Of a DNA stretch of 60,007 bases, positions 48,101 through 51,789 are shown one piece after another (position 1 is the stretch's first letter; the number at the start of each line of letters is the position of its first letter). This DNA comes from Saccoglossus kowalevskii (taxonomy: Eukaryota; Hemichordata; Enteropneusta; Harrimaniidae). The notes beneath the pieces were generated by a model that saw only the letters and a program-made list of their open reading frames with translations, had not been told where the DNA came from and did not search any database. A program made the position numbers and the translations under genes. The stretch lies in the NCBI RefSeq assembly GCF_000003605.2, contig NW_003108086.1, forward strand, positions 509,811 to 569,817, written 5' to 3'.

Positions 48101-51100
48101 GGCAATTCAGACGGGGGAAAAGCAAAACAATAGAAACTACTGAGTTACATATAATCCTGTCAATCATGAAGAAAAGCTTGCGATATCAAACAATACGCAT
48201 ATAGGCGCACCAAACTCTCACCTCAAAAAAACATTAAAAAACGTTACAAAGGTGCTATCAACTCAAAAAAGCGTCAGAAGTATTCCGGAAACAACACATA
48301 AACAAAAACAACTCTTAAAACGTCGATATCTCTGTACATCGACAAATCTCAAAACTCTGAAAAACTCGTTGGGGCATTACTTTCCCCATCATATTCCGTA
48401 TTAAAACTCCATAAAACTTCACAAAACTCAAAACACTGTGTTGCAAATACTTGTCCACTGAGGCGCGCTTAAATCGTTATAAAGGACCTCGCACGTCACC
48501 AAATATCAGTTCAAAACAAAGATCTGGGCGCTTACATAACATACAATTCGACATCACAAAAAACGGTAAGAAAAACAATAGGAAAAGCAAGCAATACATT
48601 ACATTACTGAGCAATAGGGTTAGGGTTCTGGAAAAGAGTTCAACGTCCTGAGTTACACAGTGTCAGTTACAGTGTCCAACGAGCGGTTCTCTAAGCAATA
48701 CACAGATAGCTAAAGTCAAAGTCTATAAGCGTCTCTTCTCTTGTCGCGTTATTCCGGGTCGTTCTTTGTCATCTTCTTGTCTTTAATGTCGCTCAATTCT
48801 TAATTATTCAGTCCTATATGATACTCGTCCTTCATAAGGGGTTCTGAAATCTTCATGTCGTCAGCGTCGTTCATCGGTGCCATACTGGTAAAGGTGTTAG
48901 TCGTCAATGGCGGTTTCGTCTCTGCCATCGAGCTGTTAGTTCGGTTCACAAGAAAGACACACCTTCGCCATTTCACTTCTCTTCACAGGATGTCAATGTG
49001 CATAAGACGCAATGCCCAGGGTTCTCACACCACGTATCAGGGGTAATTCTTCTACTCTGGGTGGTCCACACTTGTCAGGGGGGGAAACTCGTCTCGTCTA
49101 TATCTTGTCCCCTTGAGGTGCGGGATCGGGAAAGTCACTTATACTTTACAATCAAATAAGGCACACACAACGAAATACGTTTCAACTCTCATCTTAGTCG
49201 ATCTTTTGGAGCACTCTATAAGACACAGCGCCCTGGGGAAAAGTCCCTAAGACTCTCACAAGGCTGAACCAAGACTCGCCCAAGACTGGACTGCCTCAAG
49301 GCTCGCCCCTGGACTGGACTCTCGACTCTCCAGGACTGCACTTTCTCTACTGCGTCTATCGTGCTGTGCTCCCCAAGACCAACTCAAACTCTCTTTATTC
49401 ATTTTCACAACTTTAACCAGTTACAAAGCAGTAAAAAGACTCTAGGGCGTAACCTTCAATCATAAAGCCAATCACACTAAGCACTGAATACGTCATATCT
49501 TTTGATTAATCGTTCACTACATTAATAACTATGGATACCAACTGTCAGAATCGCGACGGTTATCTGGTAATTAGTTCCAAATCACTGAGCCAAGTTCCGT
49601 CCAAAACTTCAAATAGGCCTAAACGATGACAGACATAACACAGCAATTCAGCTAATAATCAACTAATTAAGTCGGTTAACAGATACGCGAAAACAAATTC
49701 ATGACACATGACACATTCTAATGTGTATTAAGTGATACATAATATATCAACGTACATTGTAACTATAACATGAATATATCAACTTAATCTTATTATAATC
49801 AACATTCTAAATATAATTTACATGTTCTTAGAACATTATTTGTTACCATGATTTCTATGTCATTCAGGGGAACTAACAGTGCCGGAAAATCTGAATCCAA
49901 GTTACAGACCCAACCGCCAAGCTTGGCCTGGCGAACTATATGAAAATGGTCAATTTTATATGTTTACTCGAGAATTACTGGACAAAAGACTATTTCAAGG
50001 TGGCAAGTAAGTATGAATGATCAATTACATATTCTATTACATCGACGTGTCAAACAAATTTTAAAAGATTTTCTTCTTACTGAAGAGGATTTTTTTAATA
50101 TGGTGTTGTTTATACACATTGTTTCGTCACAAAAAACGCCCGGGTCAAGTAATTTTCTCTGTGGAATTTGTCGGGGATGCGTCCTTTATTGAAAGGCTTT
50201 ATAATGCTTTCGAAATCTATTAAATCATATGAGCTATATAATATTGGATAAACAAATGTCGAGATACAACTTTCAGCATGTGATTTCAAGAAGCAAGGCC
50301 CTTCGCCTAGCACACGTTCACCAAACCGTTCATAGCCTGGCACACTACCCCAATACATGTGATTTATATATACATATTCTTTTCTTCTCATTATATTTTC
50401 ACTCTAATCATACAGAGTCAGCTACTATGAACTACCCGAGGCAAGTAGTGTAGACATTGACACAGATTTAGATTGGTCGATAGTAGAACAGAGAGTCACC
50501 AAGTTTGGTTACTTTGGATTGGAGAAGAAAAAGAATGTCAAGTTAGTGGTATTTGACGTTGATGGCGTTATCACCGATGACGAGATCCATATTAGTGACA
50601 AAGGTACAGTACAACATAAAACATTCCCCGTTCTTGTAATTAAAGTCGTCAGCTTGCACCATGTTGTTTTCGATATGGGATTTCAGTACCTAAATGTGTC
50701 ACGAGTAAAAATTAATTATAGTTTACACATCAGTGTGTTGCTACGGATGCTCATCATTTGTTCATTCGTTTTTGAAGGCGAAGAATTCTGTTCCTATCAT
50801 CGCAGTGATCTAGAAGGTATTAAACTCCTTAAGAAAGCCGGAATTGAGGTGCGCCTGTTAACTGAAAATAGCAATGCCCCGAGTGTGCGGCTAATAAGTG
50901 AGAAGATTGAATGTATGCTTGAGATTGGCGTCAAGAATAAGGTTGAGTTGCTTACCAAGTGGGTCGAGGAGTTGAACTTAGATTGGCAACAGGTAACATA
51001 TATGGGTAAGTACCTGCATGTACGCATATGTTGTAAAACATGTATTATTTGTAAAACACGTGATCCATTGAGTGATACACAACATTTACTCATGTATACA

Positions 51101-51789
51101 AATGCACTGGTTTGGTGTCATTGTATTGCATTAGAACTTAGTAAACAATTAGAAATTAATCTCACTCAAGCAAAATGCATAACTCGGGGAACTTTCGTTG
51201 GTAAACTGTGAATGATGTATGTAGCTGAATGGGATCCGTTATTCGGAAAAGAATCTGGAAAGGATTATACAATGTTAGCAAATTATAAAAAAATAAATAT
51301 TAACCTCGAAAAAATCACTTTTTATGAGCCGTAAACAATCGTTATATATACTAACAACATATATAATCATAGGCTGGCACATAAATAATTTATGAAAATG
51401 AAATTATTACGTTTGGTAAAATTATTATCAGTAATATTCGAGTCAACCATGTCAGCAAGACACGACGTAATGGCAGTCACGTACTGATCTGATCTGAGTG
51501 TGGCAACAATCCATTACTCAATAACAAGAAAACAGAAAACATCATTCTGTGAAAATTGAGAATATGTTCTAACAGCTCAACTTGAGTAATTAAACAGGCT
51601 GCCTATCTTTATGTTACAGGCAATGATGAGACAGATATTCCAGCAATGAGAAAGTCAGGTCTTGGAGCTGCCCCTGCCGATGCACAGACTGAAACCCGAT
51701 ATGCTGCGCGTTTCATTGCAACCAATCGTGGTGGACGTGGCGCAGTTAGACAGTTTTGTGACTATATTCTACGTCTGAGTGAGAAATGA
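42199..51789 (+). CDS. CMAS: CMP-sialic acid synthetase with KdsC-like HAD domain, 7 exons
   Basis: Activates sialic acid with CTP to CMP-sialic acid, the donor for sialyltransferases. Exons: 42199-42364, 42761-42913, 45625-45780, 49868-50006, 50416-50603, 50778-51005, 51620-51789; 1200 nt, 399 aa (human 434). The cytidylyltransferase domain (residues 15-230) has the [14 protein letters not shown] nucleotide loop, [25 protein letters not shown] and [10 protein letters not shown]. The C-terminal HAD domain (240-399) keeps DVDGVITD (Asp252, Asp254), LLTEN (Thr296), KNK (Lys322) and GNDETD (Asp346, Asp349), the full canonical phosphatase set. The vertebrate protein has NIDG and GNEVSD instead. 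The vertebrate nuclear signal KRPRR is replaced by YRPNR near residue 172. Introns fit in phase; intron 3 (4.1 kb) carries an LTR element. Identity is very secure; phosphatase activity is inference. Confidence 0.96.
43996..44288. repeat. Diverged tandem repeat, about 160 bp x 2
   Basis: Both units contain TTTTAGT..AA, AAGC.TCTCCC, GTCT.TC, then GTGCTGGT..GC..C..CCCCAAT/CTCCAAT.TGAA near their ends. Unit 1 starts near 43996, unit 2 near 44158. Similarity is moderate and the ends are approximate. Confidence 0.5.
45015..45148. repeat. TAAT/TGAT/AAAT microsatellites
   Basis: Runs of TTAA/TAAT units at 45015-45068 and AAAT/TTAA units at 45115-45148, separated by A-rich sequence. Confidence 0.8.
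46835..47511 (-). repeat. 3' LTR of the element (left copy)
   Basis: 677 bp. On the - strand it begins TGTGTCATG and contains AATAAA (plus-strand 47198-47203), a plausible LTR polyadenylation signal. Confidence 0.85.
47512..47522 (-). other. Polypurine tract of the LTR element
   Basis: GGGTGAAGGGA on the - strand, directly before the 3' LTR, as expected for the plus-strand primer of reverse transcription. Confidence 0.6.
49015..49032 (-). other. Primer binding site of the LTR element
   Basis: On the - strand, TGGTGTGAGAACCCTGGG abuts the 5' LTR. It would pair with a tRNA whose 3' end is CCCAGGGTTCTCACACCA. The tRNA identity is not known to me. Confidence 0.6.
49033..49708 (-). repeat. 5' LTR of the element (right copy)
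   Basis: 676 bp, direct repeat of 46835-47511. Its inner edge reads GATACG instead of GATACA, a single change in the terminal CA. Confidence 0.85.

Follow-up and report, generated by a model that had tools for sequence, protein, structure and literature searches.

Is the C-terminal domain of an animal cytidine monophosphate (CMP)-sialic acid synthetase (CMAS) a phosphatase, or does it only hold the enzyme together? The question is raised by a CMAS gene in a 60,007-nucleotide stretch of the genome of the hemichordate Saccoglossus kowalevskii (assembly GCF_000003605.2, contig NW_003108086.1, positions 509,811 to 569,817 of the forward strand), referred to here as the window. In the available parts of two reports, the C-terminal domain of CMAS is stated to be confined to vertebrates and some bacteria (PMC8636478, PMC13214540); further literature background is given in the parts available of PMC5811610, PMC9630641 and PMC10225777. 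From the comparisons described below, the C-terminal HAD domain of the window CMAS is most likely an ancestral sialic acid 9-phosphatase that has been kept under constraint and is perhaps active.

The CMAS product and the motifs of its HAD domain

The gene consists of seven exons on the forward strand with GT-AG boundaries at all junctions and, by the splice model in Table 1, specifies a product of 399 residues. Its N-terminal domain carries CMAS motifs, reaches 98.4 bits for Pfam family PF02348 (CTP_transf_3), whose cut-off is 22.6, and matches mouse CMAS (PDB 1qwj) with an E-value of 7.7e-83; the Pfam HAD hydrolase domain is barely over its cut-off (30.1 vs. 26.4 bits). In phmmer searches of the PDB with the HAD domain, the C-terminal domain of mouse CMAS (3ewi) was matched at 7.8e-32 and KdsC-type proteins at 4.9e-25 to 1.1e-14, and a chance motif match is ruled out by these values. 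One protein combines a PF02348 domain with a KdsC-like domain at its C-terminus, which is the architecture of vertebrate-type CMAS. A bacterial contaminant is excluded by the seven GT-AG exons and by a paralogue with identical intron phases. The interval to which CMAS was first assigned (50416-51789) does belong to the gene, but covers only exons 5-7, its C-terminal part, with two introns inside. Pfam searches of ten other open reading frames of the window revealed no additional gene, the sole sensible curated-family match being exon 2 of CMAS.

HAD phosphatases employ an Asp nucleophile, a second Asp as acid/base, Thr and Lys residues that contact the phosphoryl group, and an acidic metal site. 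The original prediction held that the domain keeps all canonical phosphatase residues with the spacing of KdsC, the 3-deoxy-D-manno-octulosonic acid (Kdo) 8-phosphate phosphatase. Its numbering of D252, D254, T296, K322, D346 and D349 proved exact in the spliced protein, and motif I (DxD), motif II (T296) and motif III (K322) are as in KdsC and in the phosphatases of deaminoneuraminic acid (Kdn) 9-phosphate. Motif IV, by contrast, reads GNDETD instead of GDDxxD: Asp346 is its second acidic residue, and the Asp that usually binds metal is Asn345, which aligns with D103 of the Bacteroides thetaiotaomicron Kdn-9-phosphate phosphatase (3e81, Q8A712), a residue we take to be a direct Mg ligand of HAD enzymes. 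Among the matches listed, motif IV is G-D-D-x-x-D in all 10 distinct stand-alone KdsC and Kdn-9-phosphate phosphatase sequences, a count that excludes two 3e81 point mutants, leaves 2p9j, 4um5 and 4hgn outside, and includes two constructs of apparently one E. coli protein. The spacing is KdsC-like in that the intervals of 44, 26 and 23 residues are those of 3e81, but one residue is inserted after motif II and one is missing before Lys322. The earlier observation is therefore real but goes one residue too far, and the residue in question marks a family.

Comparison with characterized relatives places the window protein between several of them. Mouse CMAS has the same two-domain order and the same motif-IV Asn (58% identity in the N-terminal and 40% in the HAD domain), but it has Asn in place of D252 and D259 and Glu in place of D346, where the window protein has Asp at all three; its motif IV is GNEVSD. 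The original prediction described the vertebrate domain as altered in its motifs and non-catalytic; for mouse, inactivity as a phosphatase is reported in the available part of PMC8636478. KdsC is alike in catalytic motifs I-III and in the last two Asp residues of motif IV, but has GDD where the window CMAS has GND, and Lys67 (Bacteroides numbering, used below together with that of the window protein) is lacking in the six KdsC-type sequences compared. The Bacteroides enzyme belongs to the same fold family and shares D10, D12, K67, K80, D104 and D107; it differs in having D103 against the Asn, in its Glu56 and Arg64, which are unkept in the window protein, and in being a stand-alone enzyme. Glu56, Arg64 and Lys67 are presumably the specificity residues of Kdn-9-phosphate phosphatase, and the PDB contains mutants of that enzyme at positions 56 and 67. 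NANP (2w4m), for which the reaction is the same as that proposed here, is a member of another HAD subfamily.

Bacterial CMAS-HAD fusions and the origin of the domain

The same arrangement of domains was found in bacteria. A tblastn search of plasmids with the window protein gave 107 records, 11 of which had one place covering at least 80% of the query; 12 loci were fetched and 10 kept, after removal of one whose open reading frame ends within the HAD domain (L013) and one whose open reading frame has no HAD domain (L023). The CMAS half of one kept locus (L024) is poorly conserved. A scan of bacterial genomes, with at least 539 related loci, contributed the best 80 of them (70 Actinomycetota, 9 Pseudomonadota and 1 Verrucomicrobiota), for a set of 90 fusions. 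An initial scan of contigs with three animal sequences yielded 54 stretches and no relative, and none of the 4 records from a phage collection had both domains.

All ten plasmid fusions read DFDGV.TD and GND(V/I)ND, and in the joint alignment D10, D12, T16, D36, E56, R64, K67, K80, N103, D104 and D107 are present in 90/90 fusions, with D17 in 88. The genome scan relied on patterns for motifs I and IV, 20 of the 80 loci matching motif I only and 32 motif IV only, so that neither the Asn of the former loci nor the Asp pair of the latter is a product of the search. A decayed motif IV is ruled out by these fusions, and since Asn103 is found in every one of them and in mouse, it is a family trait. 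The fusions (Sinorhizobium, Roseobacteraceae, Streptomyces, Nonomuraea and Rubritalea among them) resemble the window protein in domain order, in DxDG..TD, in the Lys and in GND..D, but they retain the SxExNPVV..R..K loop, whereas animals lack E56 and R64. Lys67 is shared by the Kdn-9-phosphate phosphatase, all 90 fusions, the Saccoglossus copies and mouse, and is absent from 6/6 other stand-alone KdsC-type sequences.

Fifty HAD domains were placed in a tree rooted on KdsC: 28 genome loci out of the 80, the 10 from plasmids, 3mmz, 7 stand-alone proteins and 4 animal sequences. The animal domains and the bacterial fusions came out as one group (97/91), and the stand-alone enzyme closest to it was the Bacteroides Kdn-9-phosphate phosphatase (99/82). 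Long branches for mouse and for several of the stand-alone proteins call for caution over the deep placements. The PDB entry 3mmz, titled a putative HAD hydrolase, falls among the Streptomyces fusions. Taken together, the tree and the shared residues show that the animal CMAS C-terminal domain and the bacterial CMAS-HAD fusions have a common origin on the Kdn/Neu5Ac (N-acetylneuraminic acid) 9-phosphate phosphatase branch.

In 74 of the 80 genome loci a relative of the sialic acid synthase NeuB lies within the fetched stretch, and in 12 (11 Streptosporangiaceae, 1 Micrococcaceae) NeuB follows CMAS-HAD in one reading frame; a Nonomuraea plasmid record is likewise a CMAS-HAD-NeuB triple fusion. 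A phosphorylated sialic acid pathway runs in three steps through a synthase, a phosphatase and an activating enzyme, and the pairing supports a 9-phosphatase function, short of proof. For the NeuB stretch of Nonomuraea, the closest relatives of solved structure gave no indication whether phosphorylated sugars are used.

Paralogues, neighbouring NANS and the search for NANP

Searches of the Saccoglossus genome itself (572 Mb, 4830 contigs) found three CMAS genes: the window copy (CMAS-A), CMAS-B on contig C1217, with seven exons, the intron phases of A and 406 residues, and CMAS-C on contig C844, an intronless single intact frame of 392 residues that is probably an old retrocopy maintained by selection. 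All three keep D10, D12, T16, D17, D36, K67, K80, N103, D104 and D107, which include both motif-I Asp residues with the nucleophile D252, Lys322, Asn345, Asp346 and Asp349; motif II has Thr in CMAS-A and Ser in the other two copies. Synonymous sites between the copies are near or at saturation (proportion differing, pS, 0.70-0.90), and non-synonymous divergence (dN) is 0.20-0.25 in the HAD and 0.22-0.25 in the CMAS domain. Identity among the copies is 64-70% in the N-terminal and 64-68% in the HAD domain, and identity to mouse is 58-62% and 36-40%, respectively. Because dN is equal and the paralogue identities are alike in the two domains with synonymous sites near saturation, the HAD domain is, by these substitution measures, held as tightly as the CMAS domain since the three copies split, though not towards mouse. 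The comparison of the paralogues shows purifying selection on the HAD domain with its active site included.

The neighbour of the window CMAS is NANS, encoding a sialic acid 9-phosphate synthase of the NeuB type. The two genes stand head to head, their start codons 1456 bp apart, and the stretch between them is a possible shared promoter region. This divergent pair recalls the bacterial CMAS-HAD/NeuB neighbourhoods and parallels the triple fusions. A second NANS lies on contig C1491; in the third exon of the window copy (37566-37820) KVASMDTNN is read where the C1491 copy has KVGSGDTNN. Matches to the GT29 sialyltransferase family number 142 at exon level over many contigs, a figure that comprises exons and some broken copies and is not a gene count; because of these matches sialylation is prominent in the animal, and GT29 looks like a large expansion.

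The original prediction had proposed a search of the genome for NANP, and no orthologue was found: human NANP returned just two matches, at 25-27% identity, and the TIGR02253 model four weak ones. Neither protein match is acceptable as NANP. In the PDB, one of them (L105), the better candidate, is closest to phosphonoacetaldehyde hydrolase, AlnB and phosphoglycolate phosphatase, NANP ranking below these, and the other (L106) continues into a stretch like a GMC oxidoreductase; as read from the translation of L106, a subfamily IA HAD runs in frame into a choline-dehydrogenase-like GMC oxidoreductase. As a control, the mouse HAD query, at 36-40% identity, recovers all three CMAS copies in pieces down to ~60 residues. 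NANP is thus likely absent from the genome, barring greater divergence of NANP or an incomplete assembly. The PF08282 model had no match in the genome and, being too general, was given no weight.

Two further features of the window CMAS were noted. Intron 3 contains a pair of direct repeats ~1.5 kb apart (678 aligned bases, 97.8% identical), whose layout suggests a small element flanked by terminal repeats. Exon 4 departs from the (N/K)RPRRQDWDGEL(Y/F)ENG sequence found in CMAS-B, CMAS-C and mouse; the KRPRR stretch of mouse CMAS is one we take to be a nuclear localisation signal, and the window copy, which differs here, may be cytosolic.

Table 1. Coordinates of CMAS, NANS and related features; positions are those of the window unless a locus is named.
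Feature	Position	Strand	Remarks
CMAS gene	42199-51789	+	seven exons
CMAS exon 1	42199..42364	+	start codon, ARGGSKGI motif; splice model, PF02348
CMAS exon 2	42761..42913	+	splice model
CMAS exon 3	45625..45780	+	splice model
CMAS intron 3, direct repeats	46832-47508 and 49030-49705		
CMAS exon 4	49868..50006	+	splice model; differs in sequence from B, C and mouse
CMAS exon 5	50416..50603	+	end of CTP-transferase domain and HAD motif I (D252, D254, T258, D259)
CMAS exon 6	50778..51005	+	D278, T296 (motif II), substrate loop 297-309, K310, K322 (motif III)
CMAS exon 7	51620..51789	+	G344-N345-D346-E-T-D349 (motif IV), GGRGA tail, stop
NANS (NeuB-type sialic acid 9-phosphate synthase)	34951..40742	-	6 exons, 354 residues
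NANS exons	40742-40611, 38511-38296, 37820-37566, 37204-37045, 35580-35474, 35145-34951	-	
NANS-CMAS intergenic stretch	40743..42198	.	between the two start codons
CMAS-C (contig C844)	L001:1477-2655		intronless
HAD-GMC oxidoreductase frame (L106)	G000:C761:445463-445858		
CMAS-HAD-NeuB single frames (bacteria)	L014:2830-5055, L034, L037-L039, L041, L042, L052, L059, L060, L063, L074, L081		

Possible functions of the domain

The most likely function inferred for the HAD domain is to remove, by hydrolysis, the 9-phosphate from the sialic acid that NANS produces. In such a reaction Asp252 would attack the phosphate, Asp254 would act as acid/base, Thr296 and Lys322 would hold the phosphoryl group, and Asn345, Asp346 and Asp349 would form a variant metal site common to the whole CMAS-HAD family; the N-terminal domain would then couple the freed sugar to cytidine triphosphate (CTP). 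The nucleophile was lost in the mouse lineage, where an assembly role would have remained. The full explanation favoured here, in which a C-terminal domain of bacterial-fusion origin, constrained in three paralogues, is still a 9-phosphatase acting on the NANS product and has only its assembly role left in mouse, is held tentatively, at close to even confidence. A stronger form of the idea, in which the bifunctional 9-phosphatase and CMP-sialic acid synthetase of the original prediction would have an Asn-type metal site, replace NANP and have left the inert vertebrate C-terminal domain as its remnant, is possible but doubtful. The bifunctional reading is credible and testable, with mixed support. 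In its favour are the active-site set kept in three old paralogues, the constraint between the copies, the kinship with bacterial fusions, the NANS neighbour and the failure to find a NANP orthologue, and on the other side are the Asn in place of the motif-IV ligand Asp, the replacement of Glu56 and Arg64 in mouse as well as in A, B and C, and a variable substrate loop.

A number of points weigh against phosphatase activity on a sialic acid 9-phosphate. The first acidic residue of motif IV is absent. Loss of the substrate-binding residues, which the original prediction had named as evidence against itself, is partial, only Lys67 being kept; Glu56 is replaced by Asn, Ala and Asp in A, B and C, and Arg64 by Ile in all three, with Arg and Ser at these positions in mouse. 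Since the replacements extend to A, B, C and mouse, this loss may date back to the beginnings of the domain in animals. In bacteria loop 55-66 is nearly fixed; in A, B and C it has one inserted residue, and just 2 of its 12 columns are invariant among them, a low number (p 0.007). At position 34, where 90/90 fusions have Arg, there is a Cys in B and a Val in mouse. The NCBIfam cut-offs for KdsC and Kdn-9-phosphate phosphatase were not reached (TIGR01670, 95.3 against 106.95 bits; NF007019, 104 against 208; NF058599, 91.5 against 180). The catalytic-site positions are more often invariant among the paralogues (10 of 11) than the HAD columns at large (83 of 153), which speaks for activity, but the hypergeometric p of 0.010 is modest and the test post hoc, as the 11 positions were picked after the alignment had been seen. 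The losses of D252 and D259 and the change of D346 lie on the mouse side, mouse being the only vertebrate compared, but the faster divergence towards mouse cannot be assigned to one lineage from the tree branches (1.47 to mouse; 0.71 for the stem of the three copies, then ~0.3 to the paralogues). Among the matches listed from the open-licence literature, there was no assayed CMAS-HAD phosphatase, nor any work on CMAS-linked phosphatases or on invertebrate CMAS C-terminal domains.

The domain could instead be a pseudo-phosphatase that only builds the CMAS tetramer, its acidic residues holding a structural metal or the fold. Such a role has been proposed for the mouse C-terminal domain, which is reported to be tetrameric and for which, as for whole mouse CMAS, the available part of the report records no phosphatase activity (PMC8636478). 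The loss of E56 and R64 in animals would fit it, and so would the Asn at position 103, shared by the three paralogues, mouse and all 90 fusions. This alternative is nonetheless rather unlikely: the bacterial fusions without exception keep D10, D12, K80, D104 and D107 along with E56, R64 and K67, the HAD domain here is as constrained as the catalytic domain beside it, and, as mouse keeps the fold without D252 and D259, these residues are not needed for structure alone. A near-invariant core next to a variable loop 55-66, with E56 and R64 replaced and a residue inserted, is also what would be seen in an active HAD phosphatase that had turned to another substrate, or to sugar phosphates in general, as its loop diverged among the paralogues. 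That alternative is improbable in view of the genomic pairing with NANS and of Lys67, kept in all three copies and mouse as in the Kdn-9-phosphate phosphatase and the fusions, but lacking in the other KdsC-type sequences. Least probable is a transitional decay, with D252 and D254 as leftovers on the way to the vertebrate state; the loss of E56 and R64, and of R34 in paralogue B, is in keeping with it, yet no catalytic Asp or Lys has been lost in three paralogues whose synonymous sites are near or at saturation.

As far as the available part of PMC13214540 goes, NANP is not essential in human HAP1 cells, Neu5Ac is still made by human cells without it and another phosphatase is suspected. The available part of PMC6200933 describes a haptophyte Kdn pathway with no recognisable Kdn-9-phosphate phosphatase. 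The window CMAS shows the C-terminal domain, with a near-complete active site, outside its published range, in an animal that the 36-40% HAD identity to mouse and the 142 exon-level GT29 matches also mark as most likely not a vertebrate. It suggests from what state the vertebrate C-terminal domain may have turned into a scaffold. With the bacterial CMAS-HAD-NeuB triple fusions the bifunctional idea is directly testable. If it is true, a CMAS-linked phosphatase would be an alternative evolutionary solution to the removal of the 9-phosphate from sialic acid, with relevance to human cells that lack NANP.

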